From Bdellovibrionales bacterium Ga0074139 (GTDB lineage: Bacteria; Bdellovibrionota; Bdellovibrionia; Bdellovibrionales; Bdellovibrionaceae), in assembly GCA_001464795.1 (NCBI GenBank), contig LNEB01000011.1, forward strand, positions 62,001 to 126,000: a stretch of DNA of 64,000 nt, in the 5' to 3' direction. The notes below the pieces were generated by a model that saw only the letters and a program-made list of their open reading frames with translations, was not told the origin of the DNA and ran no database searches. The position numbers and the translations under genes are program-made. Positions 30,250 through 61,531 of this stretch are shown here, piece by piece. Position 1 is the stretch's first letter; each line of letters starts with the position of its first letter.

Positions 30250-30624
30250 ATGAAAGTCGAAATGATGAAATCCAAAATTCACAGAGCCACTGTCACAGAT
30301 GCTGATCTGAATTACGAAGGATCCATTTCTTTGGGGCCTGAACTGATCAAAGGTTGTGGGTTTTTAATTAATGAAAAAGTAGATGTGCTAAATTGTAACA
30401 ACGGCCAGCGATTCACCACCTATGTCATTCTTGGAAAAAAGGGTGAGGTCACTTTGAATGGAGCCGCTGCAAGGCTAGTACAAAAGGGTGATATTGTAAT
30501 CGTCGTTTCCTACTGCCAACTGGACATCAATGAAGCCAAAAAACACAAACCTCAGGTGATTTTTGTGGATCATAAGAACAGAATCACGGGAACTCATGCT
30601 GAAAAAGCAAATAGTTTAAAGTGA
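30250..30624 (+). CDS. panD: Aspartate 1-decarboxylase proenzyme
   Basis: 124-aa pyruvoyl enzyme making beta-alanine from aspartate. Self-cleavage occurs between Gly and Ser in NYEGSIS (about residue 24-25), and the typical RATVTDADL upstream and [11 protein letters not shown] with YCQLD downstream are present. The last gene of the CoA operon, ten bases after coaX, with an AAAGGAT SD. Its end overlaps the convergent TIGR02147 gene by nine bases. Confidence 0.97.
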
Positions 30625-31389
30625 GGATTTGATCTTAGTAACAGGGATAAGTTGCACATTTAATTCGTAAACTTCATCCTTGTGACCGTCTTCCAAAAGT
30701 GCACTTAAGTTTTTTCGAAACTCACGAATTAATTTTTTAGCTTTTGGCAAGTTCTTAACATCAATGGCCATCGTTGTTGATGTCACATCCCGAAGCTCCA
30801 AAGGAACAGACTCTAATTTATCAATGGCCGATCTTAAACTTTTTCGGTGTGATTCCCTTAGAGCTTGGCTAAGCGAATCAGTCGTTGTTTCTAACGCTTG
30901 ATCAAGGGTTAATCGGATAAAGTTTCCATCGAAGGCTACATACTGTAGCTGCTTTAAATTTTGTAGTGCCAGTTCGACTTCAAGTTTTGGCTTTTCCAAC
31001 CGAGCAGCCATCCACTCAATCTGAATGGCTAAAACATTATTTTTTTTATTATGCGTGAGTTTCTCAAAGCCCTTTGTTTCAAGTAAACATAGTAATGCAA
31101 AGTGAATGGGATCTGCTATCAAACAAAACTGTGATTCAGTCAATGCTTGTGAACCTGAAGGAACACCCGAAATGGCATTTTGCCACTTTTGTCGCTCAAC
31201 CAAATCAAGTCTTAAATTATTCAAAATTTTTCCAGCATAGGTTTTTGTCAACCTGCGCTTGCCATTTAAAATTTCAGACAGTCTTCCGCTGGGAATTCCA
31301 ATGGACTGAGAAAATGCACGTAAAGAGTAAGAGGGATTCTTACTCTTTCTGCGAATAAATTCTTTTTTTAATAAGCTTTCTGTTTGCAT
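30616..31389 (-). CDS. TIGR02147/DUF4423-family regulator
   Basis: 257 aa with an N-terminal XRE-like helix-turn-helix ([27 protein letters not shown]) and a long helical C-terminal domain of the type found in TIGR02147 proteins, which are abundant in Bdellovibrio and Fibrobacter. The C-terminal block [18 protein letters not shown] and the [13 protein letters not shown] helix fit this family. Function is unknown but the HTH suggests transcriptional control. It follows a secreted-protein gene by five bases; such regulator/secreted-protein pairs recur in these genomes (from general knowledge), so the partner may be its target. Confidence 0.78.
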
Positions 31390-31394
31390 GGGGG

Positions 31395-32762
31395 TTATTG
31401 GACTTTAATAAGACGAAAATTGCGATCAACAAGCACTCGCTTGCCAGCTCGCACTCGAGTGAATTTTTCATTTTCGTACTGCCTAAGTTCGGCATCACGA
31501 TCGAGAACACACGATAGGCTGTTTGTTTGACCATATTTGAATTCAAAAATTAATTTAGTACTTTTACGGCAATTTAAATAATCAACATTACCTGTCAGTA
31601 TAAATGAAACTTTTGCGATTTCTTCTGCTTTGAATTCAACCTGCAAACCTGTCAATTCACTAAACTTCCATCCAGACCAAGCATAGGATAATTCAATGAG
31701 CTTTTGGGATTTATACTTAAGTGTGAATCCACTTGATGAAGTTTCCCAAACTTCATCTCTCCTCAGCAAAAAATAATCTGATTTGATACTATAAGCTGAT
31801 AATATACTAAATTGACCCCCCAAATAAAGAGTTCCGTTTGAATTAAAAACGACTTGTTGAACGGATCCACTCCCCAAAAAAGTGGGAAGTTCTAATTGTG
31901 TTAAATCAGCAGGAACTAGGTTAACAGAATATCTGCACTGACCAGAATGATATACTGCTGTACAGTATCCATTATCATTGCTGATTTTTCCAGGGAATTG
32001 TAATTCAGGTATACTAAAATTAAAATTCAGGCCATCTAATTGTAATTCCCAAATTAATTTTTTAATGTAGTAAGAATTAAAAAATGGAATCCCTTCAGCT
32101 GTCGTTAACAATAGTAAATTCAGATCATCTATTATTAATTTTCTGTAATCTAATAAAGACAGTTGATTCAATTGATCGGCCCAAAACAGTCCGTTTAAAT
32201 ACCGAACAGCCTGTGATGATCTATGTTCCTTAGCTCGTGCCTCACGAAAAATAAGCTCGTGAATGATCGTCGCCACTTTTGAGTTATCATCTAACAAATT
32301 CCAAAGATCCTGGCTAAAAGTGTGCCGGTAAGGATTCAACGGGGGCTTCACATCTGTTTGAACGACAAGTTGTTTGATTTTGCAGTTGACCGGCCAAAGT
32401 GCATCACCTTGATCAGGTATGTCACCCAGTTCAACTCCAGGAATAAATTTAGACTCTTGAAAAAAGCTTTTGTACCAAACCCGAAACGCCCAAGCTCGGC
32501 TTGGATCAATTTTTTCTACGCGTGAAATGATCGAGTCTACTTTTTCATCAAGTGTGTTTCCTTGTGGTGGAATCAGTGTCATTCCGAATTTAACTTCGGC
32601 TTCAAATAGGTCGTAAAATTTTGCAGAAGTGATTTTTCCTGCTGAGTCGTAACAAACTAAAACATCGCCTCCGTTACCACGGTCATGACCACCCAAAAAT
32701 TGGGCCTGCACGGCTAATGTAGTCATTGTAATTAGGATTACGATTAAACTTCTCATCTTCAC
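31395..32762 (-). CDS. Secreted protein with HExxxREA segment
   Basis: 455 aa. Signal peptide (MKMRSLIVILITMTTLAVQA), then GGHDRGNGGDVLVC at the mature N-terminus, a motif shared by a family of exported Bdellovibrio proteins in my recollection. Around residue 170 lies VATIIHELIFREARAKEH, which resembles a zinc-peptidase helix but has HELIFREA rather than HExxH. The C-terminal half is beta-rich with cysteines. Co-directional with the TIGR02147 gene, five bases apart. Function not known; a degenerate metalloprotease is one possibility. Confidence 0.68.
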   Translation of the reverse strand: MKMRSLIVILITMTTLAVQAQFLGGHDRGNGGDVLVCYDSAGKITSAKFYDLFEAEVKFGMTLIPPQGNTLDEKVDSIISRVEKIDPSRAWAFRVWYKSFFQESKFIPGVELGDIPDQGDALWPVNCKIKQLVVQTDVKPPLNPYRHTFSQDLWNLLDDNSKVATIIHELIFREARAKEHRSSQAVRYLNGLFWADQLNQLSLLDYRKLIIDDLNLLLLTTAEGIPFFNSYYIKKLIWELQLDGLNFNFSIPELQFPGKISNDNGYCTAVYHSGQCRYSVNLVPADLTQLELPTFLGSGSVQQVVFNSNGTLYLGGQFSILSAYSIKSDYFLLRRDEVWETSSSGFTLKYKSQKLIELSYAWSGWKFSELTGLQVEFKAEEIAKVSFILTGNVDYLNCRKSTKLIFEFKYGQTNSLSCVLDRDAELRQYENEKFTRVRAGKRVLVDRNFRLIKVQ

Positions 32763-32820
32763 CTCGATGAAATGGATATATCCAACAGATTGGCGGGATT
32801 CAAGGAATTTGGGAACAATG

Positions 32821-32841
32821 TGCTCCCAAGGTGTGGGAGCA
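32821..32841. terminator. Hairpin between two minus-strand genes
   Basis: TGCTCCCA (32821-32828) and TGGGAGCA (32834-32841) form a perfect 8-bp stem with a five-base loop directly after the stop of the gene at 32846. No T-run follows on the minus strand, so termination is only possible. Confidence 0.45.
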
Positions 32842-32845
32842 TGAA

Positions 32846-34135
32846 TTAAAAAACTCGAAATGATTCCACTGAATCCACATAGGACTCAGCTTTGATGATA
32901 TTTAAGCTTTTATTATGTTGAATGGACTGCCATCCCATATCTTTAAGTAAATCAGCATACTTCTTTTGATGAATCATAAGATCAAAGACTTTGATTTCAG
33001 TTTTAAGCACATTTTTTTGGGATTCTAGTGATGGAAGATCTAACAGCACAAAGTGGACCTCGGGCTGGCTGGCGGCAAAGGTTTCGATTCCCCCACGAAT
33101 GTAGGATCCATACACTTGAGCCTGTTTCTGTGCACAATTCTTCACTAACAATACTTTCCTGACTTGAGCGGGGATTTTAAAAAGCTCCTGCATCTGCACG
33201 TCCTCGCACATCTCCCAAATGTAGTGCTGAGCTTTGATTTCTTGAAAGGATTTGGCAGCTAAATAACTTTTTGAAGGTACGTGGTAAAGACTCTCCCCGT
33301 TCCAAACACCAATTTCTTTTCCAGGGAAGCGGCTTTGTAACAGATCAAACTGTTTTAAAGTTTCAGTATTGATTTCCTGATTAAGAATTAAATAATCAAA
33401 CTGAGCCTTTAACAAGAAGGGCTGAAGACCCCCTTGAGAATCAATTAACTTTTGAAACGGTAACGGTTGCAAATCCTTTTGAAGCTGAGTCAGTTGAATC
33501 ACCAGATCAAAGGTATTCAAAATTTCACTGGAATTCTTTTTTAAATGAAGTGGTAGCTGCTTTAAAAAAACATACTGATCTTGCATGTTCATTTTGGAAT
33601 AAGCTAACCACCAACGGTGGGAAAGAAACGAATTAATATCTCCGTAACCCTTTTGTTGATCTTGATTCCATACTCGCACGTAAAAATCAGAAACAAATAA
33701 TCGAAGTCTTTCGTTAGCAATCTGAGTTTTTAAAACATCCATCATGACCGCTTTTTGAAAGGCCCACGAAGAGTAAAACTCTTTGTCCCAAATCTTGATC
33801 ATACCATTCAAAGTTTGTGTAACTTGAGGTTTTTGGTAAAGCTGAACGTGCAAATTTGTTTGGCTTGGACCCCAAAAAAGTGTGACCCATTTTTCAAAAG
33901 GAAGAATTTCATTTTCAATTAGAACTTGCTTGCGGTGAAAGTCTTTTGAGAAAGGCACATCTTCTTTGTTTTCGCAGCGAAAAATAGAGGATTGATCAGG
34001 AAAAGTGATTTTTTCAATCAGCTTAGAATTTATACATTGGGGTGATTGAGAAACTTGCGCCAAAAGCAATACAATGAATGCAAAAGTGATAAGAAAGAAG
34101 TTTCCCGCCCAAGTAGATATCATGCGAAAATACAT
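32846..34135 (-). CDS. Membrane-anchored or secreted protein, unknown
   Basis: About 425-429 aa, not recognised. An N-terminal hydrophobic segment (NFFLITFAFIVLLLAQV) acts as signal or anchor. The remainder contains many aromatic residues, is mostly helical, and includes cysteines (QCINSK, FRCEN, MCEDVQ, NCAQK). The start could be the ATG at 34135 or 34123; neither has a clear SD. Upstream lies the toxin gene in the same direction, separated by 27 bases, but composition and content differ, so they are probably unrelated. Confidence 0.6.
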   Translation of the reverse strand: MYFRMISTWAGNFFLITFAFIVLLLAQVSQSPQCINSKLIEKITFPDQSSIFRCENKEDVPFSKDFHRKQVLIENEILPFEKWVTLFWGPSQTNLHVQLYQKPQVTQTLNGMIKIWDKEFYSSWAFQKAVMMDVLKTQIANERLRLFVSDFYVRVWNQDQQKGYGDINSFLSHRWWLAYSKMNMQDQYVFLKQLPLHLKKNSSEILNTFDLVIQLTQLQKDLQPLPFQKLIDSQGGLQPFLLKAQFDYLILNQEINTETLKQFDLLQSRFPGKEIGVWNGESLYHVPSKSYLAAKSFQEIKAQHYIWEMCEDVQMQELFKIPAQVRKVLLVKNCAQKQAQVYGSYIRGGIETFAASQPEVHFVLLDLPSLESQKNVLKTEIKVFDLMIHQKKYADLLKDMGWQSIQHNKSLNIIKAESYVDSVESFRVF

Positions 34136-51843: not shown

Positions 51844-51912
51844 TATGATTTCATCCTTTTGAAGGTCTTCAGCAAACATTCATGCGAAATTGAAGCCAAA
51901 ACATTGGTCGAA

Positions 51913-52047
51913 TCGCGCCACTTGTGCGCCAAAATGAGACAATAAACCACGCCTTTTCGCGCCAATGAGGCTGACGTGAAACCAATTTCTAAAGCATTTC
52001 AATATCTTACAAATCACAGACTCTGTTTGTGGAGGTATCCCACAAAC
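51913..52047 (+). promoter_or_regulatory. Control region copy 1 with phased GCGCCA repeats
   Basis: GCGCCA occurs at 51915, 51926 and 51959, that is with spacings of 11 and 33 bases, so all three lie on the same helix face. This block and the element TATCTTACAAAT (about 51999-52010, possible -10) followed by CAGAC and CTGT are shared with copy 2. In copy 1 the leader also contains GTTTGTGG (52025-52032) pairing with CCACAAAC (52040-52047). Likely binding site for the TPR/winged-helix regulator encoded downstream. Confidence 0.6.
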
Positions 52048-52091
52048 ACCTTTAAAACCAGTTCAACAAACAAACTTAAAGGAGTTTAAAA

Positions 52092-52820
52092 ATGAAAACA
52101 CTATTGATGACATTAATTATGATGATGGGCCTCAGTGCACAATCTCAAATAACAATCGAGGAAATTGCACCTCGGTGGAAAACAGGAAGTTACTCAACTG
52201 GAAGCACGCTCGCTCACAGATTTGATAATCCGACTTATGTAGAAAGAATGTTGATCTCTGCAGAAGGCTATCGGGATTTCTCGAAGGTATATGTTTATGC
52301 TGATGGTGACTTAGTATCAGTACTAGGAGTTCCAGGCCGTGATCCTGAATACCCAGTGATTGTAAGAAAAACAATTTCATCGATCGTAATGAAATTCGAA
52401 GGACACGTACGAATCTTAGATTTCAGACTTTATATTGGAGAAACCTATTCAAATGAAAACTTCTACAGCCAAGAGTACGCCAACCTTGATACACCTGCAG
52501 AGCTTGGAAAAGCAGTACTAAAAGTCGTAGGTGATTTACAGAATTATGTCAGTGATAAAGAATTTAAAACTTACCTTCTTCCACTACGAAAAAGTGCACT
52601 TGTTTTAGCTGCAAAAGGCATGGGTCGCCCCCTACTTTCTGACAATACTCAAAGACAAGCCAGAATTATGGTTTTTCAAATTCACCAAGCTGAAAATTTT
52701 ATTTTAGGTCGATTATCTGAGAGTCAGTACTTTACTCAGCAAGTACAAACTCTACTTTTTGTTAAAGAAAAATTAGAGTCCGTTTATGAACTTCCCCGCG
52801 CCCCCCAAAACAGAGAATAA
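52092..52820 (+). CDS. Secreted first-slot protein of module copy 1
   Basis: 242 aa. Signal peptide MKTLLMTLIMMMGLSAQS. Residues about 25-130 look like a beta-sandwich (HRFDNPTYVERMLISAEGY, VYVYADGDLVSVLGVPG). Residues about 135-240 are helical and share with the long paralogues a segment reading GRPLLSDNTQRQARIMVFQ here and GKPLLPITHRKITENLRMIMV there. SD AAAGGAG. It is expressed from control region copy 1 and followed by a 14-bp hairpin. No known family recognised. Its counterpart in copy 2 is a different, shorter protein. Confidence 0.75.
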   Translation: MKTLLMTLIMMMGLSAQSQITIEEIAPRWKTGSYSTGSTLAHRFDNPTYVERMLISAEGYRDFSKVYVYADGDLVSVLGVPGRDPEYPVIVRKTISSIVMKFEGHVRILDFRLYIGETYSNENFYSQEYANLDTPAELGKAVLKVVGDLQNYVSDKEFKTYLLPLRKSALVLAAKGMGRPLLSDNTQRQARIMVFQIHQAENFILGRLSESQYFTQQVQTLLFVKEKLESVYELPRAPQNRE

Positions 52821-52828
52821 CAATCCAT

Positions 52829-52869
52829 CCAAGAATCACGCCATCCCCCGCCTTTGGCGTGATTCTTGG
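52829..52869 (+). promoter_or_regulatory. Intercistronic hairpin, copy 1
   Basis: CCAAGAATCACGCC (52829-52842) and GGCGTGATTCTTGG (52856-52869) form a perfect 14-bp stem with a 13-base loop between the stop of the first gene and the SD of the long gene. No T-run follows. It may stabilise the upstream mRNA, act as a partial terminator or set the ratio of the two proteins. Confidence 0.75.
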
Positions 52870-52905
52870 ACCCCTAATTAACGAATCAACCCCAGGAGCT
52901 ATAAA

Positions 52906-54201
52906 ATGAAAAATAAGAACTTTACCAATAAACTTATGATGCCCCTTTTTGTCCTAGTGAATATCTTTTCGACAGTTGCACTTAGCCAAACCAGTCCCGA
53001 AGGACACTATCGAGATGAAAATGGAAATATTGTTTTTGATTTGAAAACATGCAGTGAGATTCCATGCACTTTAAGTTACAAATCAGCAAAAATTGAGATT
53101 TTACATGGAGGCATTTACAAACCTCAGGGTACTACTATTTTAGTTGCTAACAGTGCAAATCCAATTACGGTTAAATCTTCACTGCCCATCAGCTATGTCA
53201 AAATGCTTACTGATCACACTCGGCTGCAAACCAATACAACCTCTAACAGAACATCATTAATTAAAACATGTGAATATAACGGACCTACAAGCAAATGGGT
53301 TGTTACAAAAAATGACAATGTAGTAATAAACCGTGTTGAGATAGAAGTATCTAATAGCTGCTCTGGTTCTGCACAATTGCAATTTGTTGCAGTAATGGCT
53401 GGAAATACCGACACAATTGTTGAAGACATGAAAAATGCGTCAAGTCCTCTGATCCTTACTTACACATCAATTGGTGAACACTTAAGTGACTTTAGACAAA
53501 TAGTTTCTAAAAACAGTTCTGATGCACGCCATCTTAATCGATTAGAATCACAAATTAAAAACACATTAAAACTAATGGTCGATGAAAAAGGAAATGCCCT
53601 ACTACCCGTTACCCACAGAAAAATAACTGAAAGTTCTAGAATGATAATGGTACTTGCAACAGTATTAGAAGAAATAACTGACAGCTATGATTTCACTTCA
53701 AGATTCTTGGAACCACTAGAACCTGCAAAAAAGTCACTCAATAAGCTATCTCAACAAATTCGTACACTTTATGGATGGGACGATGGATTGGCTGGTTCAG
53801 GCTCAAAAGCTTTAGCAGCCTTAGGAACCATATTAGATTCAGAGCTACGAAGTCTTTATTCATTAACCGCCACGTTTAATAATGACGCAAAGACAGCACA
53901 AGCCTTCAACGCCATTTTCAGAGCTAATTCTGTTTTAGTGGCCAAAGTAAATGCTTCTAACGCAGGTGATATCGCAGGTACAGATGCAGCAAAAACTGTG
54001 ATTCAAAATTGGAACTCAGCTGAGTTTCAAAATATTCTGCAATTAGCAATGAGTGCACCTAAAGATGCGCAATCACAGATTCAAAATAGAATTCTTATGG
54101 CCCTGACTGCAATTGAATCAATCAAAGACTATGTGGACCCTAAAGATGAACTTAAATCAGCCATTGATTTGCCCACATCTGTTCGTTCAAAGTTAAAATA
54201 A
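52906..54201 (+). CDS. Secreted paralogue A of the module
   Basis: 431 aa. Signal peptide (NKLMMPLFVLVNIFSTVALSQ). The N-terminal mature part has GHYRDENGNIVFDLKTCSEIPC with a cysteine pair; the middle is divergent; the C-terminal 230 residues form a helical domain (RHLNRLESQIKNTL, RMIMVLATVLEEITD, YGWDDGLAGSGSKALAALGT, RANSVLVAKVNAS) ending SVRSKLK. The closest relative in the window is the 449-aa protein at 55003, with the C-terminal part strongly alike. Function unknown; helical repeats suggest a structural or binding role outside the cytoplasm. SD AGGAGC. Confidence 0.78.
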   Translation: MKNKNFTNKLMMPLFVLVNIFSTVALSQTSPEGHYRDENGNIVFDLKTCSEIPCTLSYKSAKIEILHGGIYKPQGTTILVANSANPITVKSSLPISYVKMLTDHTRLQTNTTSNRTSLIKTCEYNGPTSKWVVTKNDNVVINRVEIEVSNSCSGSAQLQFVAVMAGNTDTIVEDMKNASSPLILTYTSIGEHLSDFRQIVSKNSSDARHLNRLESQIKNTLKLMVDEKGNALLPVTHRKITESSRMIMVLATVLEEITDSYDFTSRFLEPLEPAKKSLNKLSQQIRTLYGWDDGLAGSGSKALAALGTILDSELRSLYSLTATFNNDAKTAQAFNAIFRANSVLVAKVNASNAGDIAGTDAAKTVIQNWNSAEFQNILQLAMSAPKDAQSQIQNRILMALTAIESIKDYVDPKDELKSAIDLPTSVRSKLK

Positions 54202-54340
54202 AAAAGGGGACTACCTAATTATATTTAGTAGTCCCTTCTTCAAATTCGAAACCTATCACTTATTTCTATAAAAAATGAAATGGCCATTCAACTCGGCTGT
54301 TCTAATTCTTTGTTACAATTCAATGCTTAAAAATTTCTAT
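54202..54340 (+). pseudogene. Remnant of the module regulator gene
   Basis: Two blocks match the beginning of the regulator gene at 56370 at nucleotide level. The first, about 54204-54250, resembles 56400-56450 (shared GGGACTACC and CTTCTT). The second, about 54260-54325, resembles 56525-56590 (shared TGGCCATTCA, CGGCTGTTC-like and TTTGTTACA). Roughly 80 bases between them are deleted, frames are broken, and the rest of the gene is gone. The GGGACTAC/GTAGTCCC inverted repeat at 54207-54235 is a by-product or may now act as terminator. Confidence 0.75.
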
Positions 54341-54410
54341 TCCAGATGATCATTTCAATAAACTCAGTAGTTGGTTTAGTTTATTTTTTCGAGTCAAAAC
54401 GTTAGTCAAA

Positions 54411-54540
54411 ACGCGCCACTTGTGCGCCAAAATGAGACATTAAACCATATCTTTTCACGCCAATTTTGCTAATGCGTAGCTAAATTCTCAGTCCTTTCAG
54501 TATCTTACAAATTGCAGACACTGTATGTGGTGGAATCAAG
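54411..54540 (+). promoter_or_regulatory. Control region copy 2 with phased GCGCCA repeats
   Basis: GCGCCA at 54413 and 54424 and ACGCCA at 54457 keep the 11- and 33-base spacings of copy 1. The block TATCTTACAAAT and CAGACACTGTATGTGGTGG downstream also matches copy 1. Its conservation in both copies, unlike the first genes, supports a functional role as promoter and operator. Confidence 0.6.
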
Positions 54541-54589
54541 TCAACACCTTTAAAACTAGATCAGAAATAACAACACAAAAGGAGATAAA

Positions 54590-54919
54590 ATGAAAAAATT
54601 TAATATGATTCTGATTTTCACAGCACTAACAAGCTCTCAACAAGCATTCGCACAACTAGGTGATTCGATTCTAGGAGCTACTTTTTCACCGCTGCTAACA
54701 TCAAAAGTTGTATTCAGTGATGGTGGAGTAATTCGACAAAATGACTTTATCATGGTCAGTGATGACGCAATGATCGCAATTGAAACTGGTGAAATAACTG
54801 ATGCCCTAGCATCCGTTATGGAAAAAATGAAAACAACAGATTCAATCTATTCAACAATGAATGAAGAACAACTGATTCATGAAATCATTGGTTTCACTAA
54901 CCAAGGTACAAAAGAATAA
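54590..54919 (+). CDS. Secreted first-slot protein of module copy 2
   Basis: 109 aa. Signal peptide MKKFNMILIFTALTSSQQAFAQ. The mature domain has a beta part (TSKVVFSDGGVIRQNDFIMVSDD) and a helical part (EITDALASVMEKMKTTDSIY). Not the same family as the 242-aa first-slot protein of copy 1, although both stand at the same position between the same control region and hairpin. SD AAAGGAG. Function unknown. Confidence 0.7.
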   Translation: MKKFNMILIFTALTSSQQAFAQLGDSILGATFSPLLTSKVVFSDGGVIRQNDFIMVSDDAMIAIETGEITDALASVMEKMKTTDSIYSTMNEEQLIHEIIGFTNQGTKE

Positions 54920-54927
54920 CAACCAAT

Positions 54928-54968
54928 CCAAGAATCACGCCTTCCACCGCTTTTGGCGTGATTCTTGG
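54928..54968 (+). promoter_or_regulatory. Intercistronic hairpin, copy 2
   Basis: CCAAGAATCACGCC (54928-54941) and GGCGTGATTCTTGG (54955-54968): the same two arms as copy 1, with only the loop differing. The arms are completely conserved between copies. Confidence 0.75.
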
Positions 54969-55002
54969 ACTCTAAATAACTAATACTTTAAGGAGCTATT
55001 CA

Positions 55003-56352
55003 ATGAAGAACAACCAACTAAAAAACAGCTTTCTGATGCCGATTTTTGTCCTAGTGAATATCTTTTCGACACTTGCATTTGGACAAAACTTATTGGAACC
55101 AAAGCCAAATGGTCATTTTACAGATAACAATGGCAATCTCGTTTTCAACTTGAATGAGTGTAAAGAAATTCCGTGTAAGCTTAGATATAAATTTGCAACA
55201 GTTGAGGTCACTAGCGGACGTTTGATGAGAACCGAAAGTGGAATTAATAAAGTTTATTCAGATGAGAATAGTTCATTTATTAAGATCCAATCAGATCAAT
55301 CGATAATATCAGCAAATGTTTTTGCAATTGAAAAAGTACTTAAATCTCATTCAAAATATAATGATAAATTTAGAGTTGCTTTTGCTTACTGCTCATCTGT
55401 TAGTCAAACGAAATCTCCATATTTAAATGAAAATCGCAATCTCGACACCACTAATGATGATACGACTACTAAACGGATAGAAGTGAGTCAGATAGCTGGA
55501 TGCATAGGTAGTATTGCTGTTAACTATGTCGTAATTGATGGGCGATTAGAAGTACCAACTGATTCTGCAGTAGAGGAAATGGATTTGTCTTCATTACCAC
55601 TTATTTCTATGTTAACAGCCGCAAATCAAAATCTAGTAAAATTCAAACAGATACTTCCTAAAGATAGTTCAGATTTACGTCACCTCAATCGACTAGAAAA
55701 ACAAATAGCAATAGCTATAAAGACTATGAATGGAGAATCTGGAAAGCCATTGCTTCCAATAACACATAGAAAAATAACTGAAAATCTACGAATGATTATG
55801 GTTTTATCGACAGTCCTTGAAGAAATCACTGATCGATACGATTTTGATACAGACTTACTGCGTCCGCTTTATACTTCAAAGCTTGTTCTTAACAAATTAT
55901 CTCGGCAAATTCGCAAGATGTATGGCTGGGATGAAGGACTAGCCGGATCTGGCTCTAAAGCCTTAGCTGCTTTAGGTACAGTACTTGATTCTGAGCTTAG
56001 AAGTCTTTATTCAATTTCAGCAGCATTTAATAACGATGCAAAAACAGCACAAGCTTTTAATGCACTTTTCAGAGCTAACTCAATTTTAGTTGCTAAAGTA
56101 AATGCATCGAATTCTGGAGATATTGCTGGCACGGACGCAGCAAAGGAAGTTATTAAGCAGTGGAACTCGACTGCTTTTCAAAGTATTTTGCAGATTTTAC
56201 TTAATGCACCTAAAGATGCTCAACCACAGGTTCAAAACAGAATTCTAATGGCATTGACTGCGATTGAATCAATCAAAGACTATGTCGATCCAAAAGGTGA
56301 TTTAAAGTCATCAATTGATGTACCGACATCTGTAAGATCAAAGCTAAAATAA
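55003..56352 (+). CDS. Secreted paralogue B of the module
   Basis: 449 aa. The signal peptide (SFLMPIFVLVNIFSTLAFGQ) is almost the same as in paralogue A, as are GHFTDNNGNLVF and the EIPCKL cysteine motif. The middle (about residues 70-200) has diverged or recombined. The C-terminal domain (RHLNRLEKQIAIAI, PLLPITHRKITENLRMIMV, YGWDEGLAGSGSKALAALGT, RANSILVAKVNAS) is strongly conserved. Intact, with SD AAGGAG. It is followed after 17 bases by the regulator gene, which is thus co-transcribed or closely linked. Confidence 0.78.
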   Translation: MKNNQLKNSFLMPIFVLVNIFSTLAFGQNLLEPKPNGHFTDNNGNLVFNLNECKEIPCKLRYKFATVEVTSGRLMRTESGINKVYSDENSSFIKIQSDQSIISANVFAIEKVLKSHSKYNDKFRVAFAYCSSVSQTKSPYLNENRNLDTTNDDTTTKRIEVSQIAGCIGSIAVNYVVIDGRLEVPTDSAVEEMDLSSLPLISMLTAANQNLVKFKQILPKDSSDLRHLNRLEKQIAIAIKTMNGESGKPLLPITHRKITENLRMIMVLSTVLEEITDRYDFDTDLLRPLYTSKLVLNKLSRQIRKMYGWDEGLAGSGSKALAALGTVLDSELRSLYSISAAFNNDAKTAQAFNALFRANSILVAKVNASNSGDIAGTDAAKEVIKQWNSTAFQSILQILLNAPKDAQPQVQNRILMALTAIESIKDYVDPKGDLKSSIDVPTSVRSKLK

Positions 56353-56369
56353 GAAAAGAAAACAAGAAG

Positions 56370-58382
56370 ATGAACACACTGGAAACACTTGAAAATTTTG
56401 AAAAGAAGGGACTACCAAATAATGTTTGGCAGTCTCTTCTTAATGAATTTCAAGCCAGTGAAGATCCCAACCAATGGCTACAAAATATTCAGTCACAATT
56501 TCCAAAGCTAGCTGACCTTGCACTGATTTCTGGAAAGTATGAACTGGCCATTCACTTAGGCTGCTCGAACCCTTTGTTACAGTTCAAAGCGCTTTATCTA
56601 GCTGGACAAAAAAAATCAGCTGAGCAACTTCTTAATCAGCAACCTGGGATCTTGGATTTAATGTGGCTACGAATTAACAATGAATCATTATTGGCCTTTG
56701 AAAAATATCATAACCAAATTTCTACTATGTGTAGTGACCTATCGAATGAAATTAAACTTGAAGTCTTGATGCAGTGGTCACTGGTTTTGTACAGTCTTGG
56801 AAAATGGACCGAGGTCATTGACACTTATAAATTAATATTTAATGAAGCTGAAAAAAATGATTCAAAATTCTACCAAGTGATTGCCGCTTTTAATTTAGCA
56901 ACAGCCTTTCAAAATTTGAATCAGAAACTTGAATCCAAAACCTGGCTTTGGGTTTGCCAAAATAAAATAGAAAATTTGAATTTCGATCATTTAAAAAATT
57001 CCATGCAGCTGTTTGAATTACAATCAGCCTTAAAAGAATCCGAATTTGAACAAGTCAGCCTTTTATCAAAAAAGTATTTAGCTAGTCAGGATCTCAATGT
57101 TTTGCAAAAAATTAAGGCCTTGCATGCCCTTGCAGAAAGCCAATCAGAATTAGGTGAAGTCTTTGAAGCCGAAATGACTTTAAGCCAATCCAGACAATTT
57201 TTATTAAGTTCTAGAATCGAACAATTTATGCCTGAACAAGAGATTCTGGAATTGAATTTAATTTCTTTGCAGCATCGACCTTCGAGATTTCAAATTAAGA
57301 AAGTTCTAGAAAACCCCAATTTAAAACTAGAGTATAAAGCAGCAGTGGCAAGATGGGCTTTTAAAACCAATGATATGTCGAAGACCATAAAGTTATCTCT
57401 TGAGATTCAAAAGCAAGATCCAGAAAACTTTGAAGATTTGTATGTTTTATTGTCTAATCGCCTTGAGCATCCGGGCAAAAAACCAAGAACAATTGAACAT
57501 CAGATTTTTAAATGCTGGCTATCTAAACAATGGAAAGGTTTAGATTATTTACAAACCTATTTGGAGATTGAAAAATCCATCTCACCTTGGAAAAAGGCTC
57601 TTTTTCACCTGACAGCTGGAATTGGCTTTTCCTTGCAGCAAGATCGTCCACAGGCAATTTTTGAATGGTCAGCTGGTCTTGATATAGCTAAATCCTCAGG
57701 CCTTGAAAGACTAGAAACTCTATTTTGCTTTCTATTACAAAATAATCCCGATCGCTTCACACTGAGTCCTGAAGAAGTCGCTTTTTATGAATCATTAGTG
57801 AACAAGATCAATATTCAACCAATTAAAATTTCAAAAAATGAAAAAGGCCATTTGAACGCCAATTCAGAGCTATCAGATCTTATTTTCGATGAAAATAAGA
57901 ATGAAGTTTTATGGCAAGAAAAGTCTATCTCTTTTCAACAGCAGCCCTTGTTAAAAAGAATACTGATTCAACTGTTTGAAAAACCGTCTGGTGTTACGAA
58001 AGAAGAATTAATCGCCAATGTATGGGGGCTTGAGTATCACCCTCTTCATCATGATCCCATGATCTATTCTGCTATTTCAAGGCTGAGGGATTTAGTTCCA
58101 ATCGAAAAAAATGATTTAGTTTATAAAATTCCAGCTACAATTAAATGGACATTTATTAGTACAAAAAAAGAAAACACTTTGTCTTTATCTGTCAGACAAA
58201 AATCAATTTTACAATTACTTGAAATCAATGAAGTCATTAGCCGCCGCGAAGTTGTTGAGTCTTTAAAAGTATCCGACCGCACAGCTCTTCGGGAACTGAC
58301 TTCATTGGTCAGAATGGGTTTGTTGAATCAAAGTGGTGCAGGCCGCGGTGTTCACTATTTAAAATGGAATCAAGGAGCTTAA
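56370..58382 (+). CDS. TPR-rich double winged-helix regulator
   Basis: 670 aa, cytoplasmic. Residues about 40-480 are helical, TPR-like (SGKYELAIHLGCSNP, VLYSLGKWTEVIDTYKLIF, IAAFNLATAFQNLN, ALAESQSELGEVFEAE). Near residue 535 lies an OmpR-like wing-helix domain: QPLLKRILIQLFEKPSGVTKEEL, then YSAISRLRDLV. The end (about 605-665) is a second HTH: LSVRQKSILQLLEINEVISRREVVESL. This suggests a transcription factor that senses a partner with its TPRs. Most probable target is the phased-repeat region upstream. It is intact, unlike the remnant at 54202. No SD is strong. Confidence 0.75.
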   Translation: MNTLETLENFEKKGLPNNVWQSLLNEFQASEDPNQWLQNIQSQFPKLADLALISGKYELAIHLGCSNPLLQFKALYLAGQKKSAEQLLNQQPGILDLMWLRINNESLLAFEKYHNQISTMCSDLSNEIKLEVLMQWSLVLYSLGKWTEVIDTYKLIFNEAEKNDSKFYQVIAAFNLATAFQNLNQKLESKTWLWVCQNKIENLNFDHLKNSMQLFELQSALKESEFEQVSLLSKKYLASQDLNVLQKIKALHALAESQSELGEVFEAEMTLSQSRQFLLSSRIEQFMPEQEILELNLISLQHRPSRFQIKKVLENPNLKLEYKAAVARWAFKTNDMSKTIKLSLEIQKQDPENFEDLYVLLSNRLEHPGKKPRTIEHQIFKCWLSKQWKGLDYLQTYLEIEKSISPWKKALFHLTAGIGFSLQQDRPQAIFEWSAGLDIAKSSGLERLETLFCFLLQNNPDRFTLSPEEVAFYESLVNKINIQPIKISKNEKGHLNANSELSDLIFDENKNEVLWQEKSISFQQQPLLKRILIQLFEKPSGVTKEELIANVWGLEYHPLHHDPMIYSAISRLRDLVPIEKNDLVYKIPATIKWTFISTKKENTLSLSVRQKSILQLLEINEVISRREVVESLKVSDRTALRELTSLVRMGLLNQSGAGRGVHYLKWNQGA

Positions 58383-58383
58383 T

Positions 58384-59658
58384 ATGAAAAAGCTAATCTA
58401 TTTAACAATTACTATTTTCAGTTCATTTGCAATGGCACAGAATTGCGATGTTTTTCAGATTGAGTCTCAAAATTCGGATTCAAAATCGACACGCCTTGGT
58501 AACGGGTTTGCCATTTCTGAAGATACAGTTGTTATTAATGATCACAGTCTCAGTGATAGTGCTACAGTCACATCGTCAGTGACTTTAAGACAGGGCCATT
58601 CAACTTTCCAAGGACAAGTTTTAAAAAGAGATTTCCATACCGATTTGGCTATCATCAAGGTTTCTCAGAAAAGTCTTAATGCCTGCAAACTTGGCACTAT
58701 CACAAACACAAATCTTACCATTCGTGGTTATGATAAAAATGATTCTACAATTTCCTTTATCCCTGCCATAGTGAAAACTTTAGAATCTAAGAAAATGACA
58801 GTCCCAGGTGTATTTCACTCCCTTGAAGTTGTTGCGGGTGGTAATTCGGAATTAAGAAAATCTCAATCGGGAAGTGTTTTGGAAAATAATGGTCATGTGG
58901 TTGGATTAATCACTCAAAAAACTTCTGAGGGAACGGCTCTTGCCATTTCCTCAAAGGATTTAAATCTCATTACAAAGCAAATGCTTAACAACCAATTACC
59001 AAAAAGAAATTATGAAGTGGACCGAAAGAACAAAAAAATCTATTTTGACGGACTTTTGCTAGAGCTTGATAACAAAAATAAAAGCGGCATTGGCGGCGTA
59101 AGTCCCCATGAAGGTCGAACGACTCCTATTTCCTTGGATGACTACGATTTAGGAGCTGTTCTTGTTGTCCTTCATGATATTTCTATTCTTCAAGTTAAAC
59201 AGCCTGCTTTAGCCAAAGCCTTACGTGAAGCACAGACGAAAAGAATATTTATTTCATCTATTGATGGAATTAAAATTTCCAATCAGCTTGATTTATTAAG
59301 AGTCCTAGGAAGTTGCAGCAGCTGTAAAATAGATAATTTTTGGGTTGAAATTCAAGATCCTGCACAAGTTCAAGATCCCACTTTAAAATTAATGGGAGCC
59401 CTATCCCTGTTAATTCTTGAACTTGAAAAATCAAATCAACCCGTGAAGGTTCAAAAAGTAGTTAATTCCATCCAAACCTTTAATCCTTTGCTTGCTAAAA
59501 GATTACAAGCCGCTGAGAAATCACAAGATGATATTCAATCTAAAATGATCATCCAAAAGCGCTGGAACAATGTGGAAGATGAACTCTCAAGTTTATGGCA
59601 TTCAGAAAGAACCTTGGACCTTTTAACCACCATTCGAGAGCTGATGATTAATCAATAA
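58384..59658 (+). CDS. Secreted trypsin-like serine protease with C-terminal helical domain
   Basis: 424 aa. Signal peptide MKKLIYLTITIFSSFAMAQ. Residues about 35-200 form a chymotrypsin-fold domain with all three triad elements: VINDHSL (His), HTDLAIIKV (Asp), and SQSGSVLENNGHVVGLI (Ser in SGS). The usual GNSGGP is GS-modified. Then comes a beta/helical region resembling a PDZ (IFISSIDGIKISNQLDLLRVLG) and a C-terminal helical end. One base after the regulator stop, SD AGGAGC: it belongs to the same operon and may process module proteins. 3' end overlaps the radical SAM gene by 11 bases. Confidence 0.72.
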   Translation: MKKLIYLTITIFSSFAMAQNCDVFQIESQNSDSKSTRLGNGFAISEDTVVINDHSLSDSATVTSSVTLRQGHSTFQGQVLKRDFHTDLAIIKVSQKSLNACKLGTITNTNLTIRGYDKNDSTISFIPAIVKTLESKKMTVPGVFHSLEVVAGGNSELRKSQSGSVLENNGHVVGLITQKTSEGTALAISSKDLNLITKQMLNNQLPKRNYEVDRKNKKIYFDGLLLELDNKNKSGIGGVSPHEGRTTPISLDDYDLGAVLVVLHDISILQVKQPALAKALREAQTKRIFISSIDGIKISNQLDLLRVLGSCSSCKIDNFWVEIQDPAQVQDPTLKLMGALSLLILELEKSNQPVKVQKVVNSIQTFNPLLAKRLQAAEKSQDDIQSKMIIQKRWNNVEDELSSLWHSERTLDLLTTIRELMINQ

Positions 59659-61531
59659 TGGTTAGGGATTTTGCGACAAAGTTTTTGCTAACCCTGGTTT
59701 TGGGCACTTTGTGTTCAAACCAAAATTGCATGGATTCTTCTAGACCCACTCCGTGCATAAAATTGTAAAGGGCTTTCTTTAAACCGTAGCCCATTTGATC
59801 ATGGTGGGCCACAGTAGGATCCTGAAAGGGAACTTCATATTCGGCAAACAAGCCTTCCTCGGGGGCTTCCCTGGGGTGAAGTGTCACTCCGAAGGCTTCG
59901 GGATTTTTTCCAACTGGTGAATGAACGGTAGCTAGAAAACGATGCCAGAAGCCTGAATCAATGCATTCGTTTTCAAATAACTGACGAACCATTTCTAAAC
60001 TATCAATAGTATCTTGATCCGTTTGAGTGGGAAATCCATACATCAAATAGGCATGGACATAAATGCCTGCTTTTTTAAAAGATTTTGTCACTTGAGCTAC
60101 TTTATCAAAATCAATTCCCTTGTTAATTAACTTTAAAAGCCTAGGGGTTGCAACTTCCAAACCTCCGGTGACTGCCACACAGCCAGCGTCAGCCATTAAT
60201 TGGGCCAGCTTTTCATCAAAGTGAGTATCAAAGCGTAAATTGCCCCACCAGCTGACTTTTAAGCCTCGCTTGAGGATTTCTTCGCTGACTTGTTTGAGAA
60301 GTGCGGGTGGTCCCGCTTCATCGACAAAATGAAATCCAGTGGACCCCGTTTGCAGAATCATTTTTTCCATATGATCCACAATCCGGCTGGCTTTTTGAGG
60401 CTCGAACCTTCCGATATAATCCAAGTTCACATCACAAAAAGCACATTTTTTCCAATAACAACCATGGGCTAAAATCAATTTATTCCAACGAAAATCAGAC
60501 CACATTCGGTGCATGGGATTTGGCATTTCCACCATGGAAATATAATCATTCAACGGTAAACCTTCATAATCCGGAGTCAAAACTTCTTTAAATGGTGCAT
60601 CTTTTATTTTTGGGTCTGAGATCTCAAGAACCTGATTATTTTTTAAAATTTTTGTTCTTAACAATTCTGATTGCTGACGTTGACCTTGTAAAAATTCAAT
60701 CAGGCACTTCAGTGGCATTTCACCATCATCAAAAATCAGAAAGTCCGTGTATTTAAAAATTCTTGGGTCCTGCATTTTTCGAAGCTCTGTGTTAACATAA
60801 CCTCCACCCATCACAATTTTGACTGTTGGATTTTGTAATTTCAAAATCTCGGCTGATCTGAGTGCACCATAAACATTTCCAGGAAAAGGCATGGTAAAGC
60901 CTACAAGCTCAGGCTTAAAATCTACGGTTGCTTCCGCTAAAACCTCGGCCATCATTTGATCAAGGAGGCCCATGGGTTGATCCAATTTTTTCTGTAAGGA
61001 TGAAAAAGATGACATCGAAGACGCTAAACTTTCACCATACCGGGAAAATTCAAAATCAGGATCCAGTCCATTTTTAATTACGTCAGCGATATCATCTAAG
61101 TATAACGAACCAATATACTTCGCTTGGTCCTGTAAACCCATTTCACCAAACTTTGATAGCAGCAGATCATCGTGTTCTTGCAGACTTACAAATCTGGGTC
61201 CTTCAGGTACCAGTTGCCGTCTTGCGAGCCTTAAAGCCATTGAAGAATCTTGGCCCTTTAAAAACCGAATCACAGGATCAATGGTATTTTGATAATCTTC
61301 AAAGGCCTCTAGAAAAAATAGGACTGAATCATGATGATGATCTTTTTTTAAAAGTTCAGTCTTCAAACGAGCCAACCCTGATTTTGAAAGCATTTTCAAA
61401 ATCACCAAGAGCCCTAAATCAATTTGTTTCACCTGTTGATTCAGGCTTTTCAAATAGGCTGTCAGATAAGGAGTCGCCGGATAGGGCGAGTTCATCTGAG
61501 TCATGGGGGGTGTAATAAGTAAAACTCTCAT
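59648..61531 (-). CDS. B12-binding-type radical SAM protein
   Basis: 627 aa. N-terminal cobalamin-binding-like region (MRVLLITPPMTQMNSPYP ... VGFTMPFPGNVYGAL, VMGGGYVNTELRK). The Fe-S motif is GCYWKKCAFCDV, Cys358-x4-Cys-x2-Cys, one residue longer than the usual CxxxCxxC. Then come FHFVDEAGP and TGGLEVATPRLLKLINKG, family blocks of B12/radical SAM proteins. Reaction unknown; relatives modify methyl groups or sulphur. Divergent from rlmK. Confidence 0.85.
   Translation of the reverse strand: MRVLLITPPMTQMNSPYPATPYLTAYLKSLNQQVKQIDLGLLVILKMLSKSGLARLKTELLKKDHHHDSVLFFLEAFEDYQNTIDPVIRFLKGQDSSMALRLARRQLVPEGPRFVSLQEHDDLLLSKFGEMGLQDQAKYIGSLYLDDIADVIKNGLDPDFEFSRYGESLASSMSSFSSLQKKLDQPMGLLDQMMAEVLAEATVDFKPELVGFTMPFPGNVYGALRSAEILKLQNPTVKIVMGGGYVNTELRKMQDPRIFKYTDFLIFDDGEMPLKCLIEFLQGQRQQSELLRTKILKNNQVLEISDPKIKDAPFKEVLTPDYEGLPLNDYISMVEMPNPMHRMWSDFRWNKLILAHGCYWKKCAFCDVNLDYIGRFEPQKASRIVDHMEKMILQTGSTGFHFVDEAGPPALLKQVSEEILKRGLKVSWWGNLRFDTHFDEKLAQLMADAGCVAVTGGLEVATPRLLKLINKGIDFDKVAQVTKSFKKAGIYVHAYLMYGFPTQTDQDTIDSLEMVRQLFENECIDSGFWHRFLATVHSPVGKNPEAFGVTLHPREAPEEGLFAEYEVPFQDPTVAHHDQMGYGLKKALYNFMHGVGLEESMQFWFEHKVPKTRVSKNFVAKSLTIID

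Follow-up and report, generated by a model that had tools for sequence, protein, structure and literature searches.

The window (the whole stretch of DNA analyzed, 64,000 nucleotides) contains two collinear modules in which a control region, an intercistronic hairpin and a gene for a putative exported protein, F1, all occur twice (BLAST E about 1e-38 to 1e-110; Table 1). The duplicated module reported in the first-pass annotation is therefore real, and its end, placed there at 58400, lies at 59658. Three blastn blocks align module 1 with module 2, namely the control region (51894-52098 / 54392-54596, 76% identity, E 7e-38), the hairpin with the start of the paralogue (52814-52990 / 54913-55087, 79%) and the C-terminal part of the paralogue (53496-54205 / 55647-56356, 72%, E 4e-110). 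The first genes of the modules (slot 1) differ, as had been annotated, and encode proteins of 242 and 109 aa that are unrelated to each other. Because the flanks are kept while the first genes differ, the difference coincides with the open reading frame (ORF): similarity reaches the start codon and picks up again at the last codons. In copy 2 a regulator gene follows, and the ATG of a protease gene (58384) stands one base after the regulator stop (58382), again as annotated. A convergent B12-binding radical SAM gene (59648-61531, minus strand) overlaps the protease stop by 11 bases.

Table 1. Features of the duplicated locus (positions are those of the window)
Feature	Position	Strand	Description
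Control region 1	51894..52091	+	Half-sites GCGCCA at 51915, 51926 and 51959 (spacing 11 and 33 bases); ATCGCGCCA begins at 51912
F0, 242 aa	52092..52820	+	Signal-peptide-like N-terminus; predicted CBM-like beta-sandwich (about 20-117) and four-helix bundle (131-233)
Intercistronic hairpin 1	52828..52870	+	16-bp perfect stem; ATCACGCCA in both arms
F1 copy A, 431 aa	52906..54201	+	Putative exported; variable N-terminal beta-rich domain, conserved helical C-terminal part
Regulator remnant, copy 1	54207..54326	+	From the 5' coding part, without start codon; opens with a stable hairpin immediately behind F1 copy A
Control region 2	54392..54589	+	Half-sites likewise phased: 54413, 54424 and ACGCCA at about 54457
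109-aa protein, copy 2 slot 1	54590..54919	+	Putative exported; distinct from F0; a tandem pair of relatives lies elsewhere in the genome (L111)
Intercistronic hairpin 2	54927..54969	+	Arms identical to hairpin 1 over 15 + 15 bases
F1 copy B, 449 aa	55003..56352	+	Putative exported paralogue
Regulator	56370..58382	+	Putative cytoplasmic; repeats in the N-terminal region, then a predicted OmpR-like winged helix (about 500-580) and a DeoR-like HTH (about 609-652)
Hairpin in regulator 5' coding part	56403..56441	+	z -6.2; counterpart of the copy 1 remnant hairpin
Trypsin-like serine protease (PF13365)	58384..59658	+	Putative exported; C-terminal half of uncharacterised type

The two F1 proteins are 58% identical overall. 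Their C-terminal two thirds are conserved, at 72% identity (dN 0.22), and the N-terminal domain is not, at 32% (dN 0.74). Both reading frames are intact, and synonymous sites between the genes are saturated (pS about 0.72). Against this saturation, all 30 of the 30 bases in the hairpin arms (15 + 15) are identical between the copies, and the phased repeats are conserved in both without insertions or deletions. At the level of the DNA, arm identity and repeat conservation point to selection on regulatory sequence, although local gene conversion may instead be responsible. Copies A and B are sisters in the F1 tree (support 100/99), although long branches meet there; the duplication thus probably arose in the lineage of the window.

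Copy 1 retains a remnant of the regulator, and the duplicated unit thus included this gene. Two stretches of the remnant (54207-54240 and 54251-54326) match the intact regulator gene at 56408-56441 (E 3e-4) and 56515-56590 (E 8e-12). Over 72 bases the differences fall 6/1/10 on codon positions 1/2/3, a bias indicating that the stretch remained coding until well after the duplication. If the protease gene was also copied, copy 1 lost it along with the regulator. The observation that the regulator is confined to copy 2 consequently holds for the intact gene but overlooked the remnant in copy 1. The hairpin that now lies after F1 copy A derives from the 5' coding region of the regulator itself; its counterpart in the intact gene, kept even in the decayed copy, is a possible attenuator of regulator expression.

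Such losses raise the question of whether the locus is an ordinary segmental duplication in slow decay, with copy 1 degenerating, the 109-aa gene filling a broken slot and the whole amounting to redundancy only. Copy 1 has neither regulator nor protease and keeps just a remnant, the 109-aa gene has only two relatives, both in the same genome, and close relatives are without the locus altogether, F1 being missing in all 65 further genomes of the family. The saturated synonymous sites weigh the other way, since F1 frames that are still intact, a low C-terminal dN and conserved hairpin and phased repeats require long selection on both copies; we consider mere decay unlikely.

The control regions are 78% identical over 51894-52065 / 54392-54563. 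In both copies the third half-site lies 33 bases past the second, so that the spacing of 11 + 33 is kept. GCGCCACTTGTGCGCCA occurs at 51915 and 54413 and at no other place in the 2.9 Mb genome, where the phased repeat GCGCCA-N5-GCGCCA is likewise found at exactly two places, both at this locus. All four loci of the same type (type I, described below) carry the motif ATC[GA]CGCCA, in forward orientation 5' of slot 1 and in reverse orientation immediately ahead of F1; in control region 2, AAACGCGCCA stands in its place. The control regions and gaps, 1,971 bp in all, hold 10 sites, against one in the other 107 kb and five in 463 kb of other loci, all five within predicted ORFs. The motif was derived by inspecting the same control regions, so that an enrichment p-value is too small to be taken literally, and what counts as evidence is that the motif recurs at both positions in each of four distant loci.

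OmpR-like winged helices bind direct repeats, and PhoB boxes are direct repeats with an 11-base period. Weak winged-helix matches (Trans_reg_C, 14.8 bits against a cut-off of 26.2; NF040689 (MtrA) over 495-576) and a putative direct-repeat operator with an 11-base period may liken the regulator to the OmpR/PhoB type. The regulator differs from that type in having a long N-terminal repeat-like region and an extra C-terminal DeoR-like HTH, while no receiver domain was found up to E 1. Full-length matches (E below 1e-250) occur only in the genome of the window and in three type I genomes; the next match (1.5e-29) covers the DNA-binding end only.

Both intercistronic hairpins are far more stable than shuffled sequences (z -6.5 and -7.1), and in the window the second, reversed motif site falls within the hairpin. 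Hairpins of unrelated sequence recur directly 3' of F0, at p 0.01 or less, in both window copies and at L119, L120, L121, L122, L123, L125, L126 and L051; a significant hairpin after F0 was not found at L124, L114, L115, L116 and L118. Intercistronic hairpins are known from export operons, for example the REP elements of malE-malF. The window hairpin is similar in being stable, lacking a clean T-run and following a leading gene for a putative exported protein, but its sequence is unique to its locus rather than a dispersed repeat, and a putative regulator site lies inside it. A dispersed REP-like element was rejected by a whole-genome pattern search, in which the hairpin proved unique to the locus.

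The finding that control region and hairpin are common to both copies, first made from the sequence alone, was confirmed, and neither occurs elsewhere in the genome. It had led to the proposal of a cassette system with one secreted partner swapped under common control. Over evolution this is apt, as partners do differ between copies and lineages; switching within the genome found no support, the 2.9 Mb pattern search revealed no silent copy of control region or hairpin, and no sign of a switch was seen. In its strong form, the proposal would have the exported partner exchanged by recombination between a fixed control region and a fixed hairpin, akin to antigenic variation. The coincidence of the slot-1 difference with the ORF, the far greater variability of the F1 N-terminal domain and the repeated duplication of F1 at other loci would all suit such exchange. 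Silent cassettes with shared flanks are nevertheless ruled against by the uniqueness of both patterns, the relatives of the 109-aa gene have neither control region nor hairpin beside them, related genomes have one fixed F0-F1 unit, and the divergence is ancient rather than a product of recent shuffling. We therefore hold this reading to be quite improbable.

The polarity of the proposal was also wrong, in that the first gene is not the variable partner. F0, the 242-aa protein, is the most widely conserved exported component (30/369 genomes), and it is mainly the next slot that varies between lineages. The F0 model (mean pLDDT 80.5) shows a beta-sandwich followed by a four-helix bundle. Residues 18-117 have a predicted fold similar to CBM6/36/29 (Z 9-10.5 over about 93 residues, 3-16% identity), the galactose-binding-like jelly roll; F0 differs from these modules in being fused to a helical bundle and in having no catalytic partner. 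A Pfam CBM match was not found, and the CBM-like fold predicted by the model does not by itself show sugar binding. F0 has no relative among viral contigs, and a phage origin was rejected.

The 109-aa protein at the F0 position of copy 2 appears from sequence comparison to be a local oddity, with a family confined to the genome of the window. Its relatives are two tandem small exported proteins (L111:7342-8013, contig C13), encoded downstream of a DUF7844/Lnb_N protein and found in no other genome searched. The idea that the 109-aa protein is an F0 or F1 that has diverged was rejected, as hhalign similarity was limited to the signal peptide.

Neither F0 nor F1 has a Pfam or NCBIfam entry. In the Pfam and NCBIfam searches, hits to CHASE3, WBS28, DUF2785, MCE and similar families were all below cut-offs and were rejected. 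The F1 model is poor (mean pLDDT 61.9), with a helical C-terminal half that gives generic helical-bundle matches only. The window F1 aligns with a distant type I F1 at an hhalign probability of 92.7 (E 4e-7). Two further ideas were rejected for want of support, that the helical halves of F1 form an internal repeat and that the helical part of F1 is the bundle domain of F0 (A2 against A3, only 49% probability).

The protease matches PF13365 Trypsin_2 over residues 39-175 (E 6e-8, 33.9 bits, cut-off 27.6), and reading of the alignments shows the triad His and Asp as well as a Ser in SGS context. Trypsin_2 domain, triad residues and predicted export liken it to HtrA/DegP-type proteases. In contrast to these, it has no PDZ domain detectable by Pfam search, it scores far below the NCBIfam subfamily cut-offs (39.7 against 450 bits and 37.1 against 416 bits), and it has a C-terminal half of its own with a GGxxPxGIGG-type motif that is shared only with relatives from the operon.

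Relatives were sought in 300-369 Bdellovibrionota genomes. Type I loci, with F0, F1, regulator and Trypsin_2 protease in that order on one strand, were found in a distant third family (L121, L123 and L124), and the window holds the same gene set when both of its copies are counted together. L123 has two F1 copies. At L121 the radical-SAM/B12 gene is 51% identical to that of the window and has the same place and orientation, which suggests either an ancestral position or joint transfer. A two-sequence F1 profile detected ten genomes of another family (Bacteriovoracaceae/Halobacteriovorax types), and a wider profile 14 of 359 genomes. All 14 F1-bearing genomes also have F0, and in the loci inspected the two share an operon. 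In Bacteriovoracaceae-type loci two F0 genes precede F1 (F0-F0-F1), and in some a second F1 or an extra gene, F2, follows; F2 has no similarity to the protease, F0 or F1 and was rejected as the missing protease and as a relative of F0 or F1. Because the ten Bacteriovoracaceae-type genomes use regulators of other kinds, TIGR02147-type beside some, regulator and protease are not obligatory partners. In type II loci F0 occurs with a distant repeat-plus-HTH regulator, with a Trypsin_2 protease in two (L114 and L126); in the type II proteases checked, the triad Asp is missing by reading of the alignments. Two putative exported proteins fill the middle of these loci, one helical and 250 aa long, the other an RCC1 propeller or related to one; at L117 and L119 the middle proteins are present, and no regulator was seen in the locus DNA examined. 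Across the phylum, judged by sequence, the middle of the operon is thus variable and F0 more constant.

The comparison proposed with the first-pass annotation turned out mixed. Repeated F1 genes do recur (L051, L052 and L123), but related loci are otherwise fixed and normally single-copy (L121, L124), once with the same flanking gene. No such operon was found in libraries or literature (open-licence papers), which agrees with the initial statement that no described system of this composition was recognised.

This distribution also bears on a possible role in predation, by which F0 and F1 would be delivered to the surface or the interior of prey, and the protease would digest the prey or activate the two proteins. 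In favor of this, predators occur in the phylum, the structural products have the look of exported proteins, and the operon includes a trypsin-like protease. A core predatory function is nevertheless hard to reconcile with occurrence in a minority of the phylum and absence from the 65 other family genomes, and Pfam and NCBIfam searches revealed neither a toxin nor a known effector domain. We judge this role highly improbable.

Several observations were made in passing. F0 operons at L114:6341-7702 and L117:475-2271 encode RCC1-propeller proteins whose N-termini resemble signal peptides and which have an additional C-terminal part; by these sequence features, this is an unusual, exported use of the RCC1 repeat. 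Regulators with a matching C-terminal DNA-binding part adjoin exported proteins with an RHxYxNCxACH-type motif at L057, L061, L062, L063 and L118, which, L118 aside, belong to the family of the window, and YceI-like proteins are present where checked (L062, L118). This suggests a wider use of the regulator type for exported-protein operons. Within the window itself, a protein encoded at 30616-34135 (minus strand) is similar to an ORF of L120, resembles TIGR02147-type regulators by eye, and adjoins two neighbouring ORFs of 429-455 aa with signal-peptide-like starts.

From sequence comparison, we regard the locus as an old tandem duplicate of a conserved Bdellovibrionota operon, F0-F1-regulator-protease, that is carried by scattered members of the phylum. 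It has been reciprocally trimmed, each copy later losing different genes: regulator and protease in copy 1, and in copy 2 F0, whose position is held by the unrelated 109-aa ORF. The explanation we favor as a whole, and find somewhat more probable than all others together, adds that this duplicate regulates itself and acts in trans through the repeats, is tuned by the hairpin and makes an exported complex. The anatomy, homology, co-occurrence and site conservation are set out above; from them we infer binding, trans action, hairpin effect, complex formation and a role for the protease, the functions of the operon proteins being deduced only in this manner. With its OmpR-like winged helix, the cytoplasmic regulator would bind the GCGCCA repeats in their 11-base phasing, acting from both sides of the slot-1 gene, and would govern the operon it belongs to and, in trans, copy 1, which has no regulator. 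The hairpin that follows slot 1 may serve as a messenger stabiliser or a partial stop, yielding slot-1 protein in excess of F1. F0, with its sugar-binding-like head and helical bundle, and F1, with its variable head and helical scaffold, would form an exported envelope or extracellular complex, which the co-expressed protease may mature or police. The duplication would then equip the cell with two forms of the complex that differ in their heads and answer to a single regulator.

More tentatively, and with considerable doubt, the operon may represent an undescribed exported apparatus built of helical-bundle proteins with exchangeable heads (CBM-like in F0, variable beta in F1, RCC1 propellers in type II). 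A dedicated operon would encode it, along with a protease of its own and a regulator binding to either side of the first gene; in this regulator, repeats, an OmpR-like winged helix and a DeoR-like HTH would follow one another in an uncommon order. If true, the duplicated locus makes two versions of this apparatus per cell. F0 and F1 are putative exported families outside Pfam and NCBIfam, F1 was never found without F0, and full loci add a protease and a regulator, so that the product of their assembly can be asked about directly. The conserved putative operator is a ready starting point for work on regulation, and the reciprocal trimming of the two copies amounts to a natural experiment in what the operon can lose.
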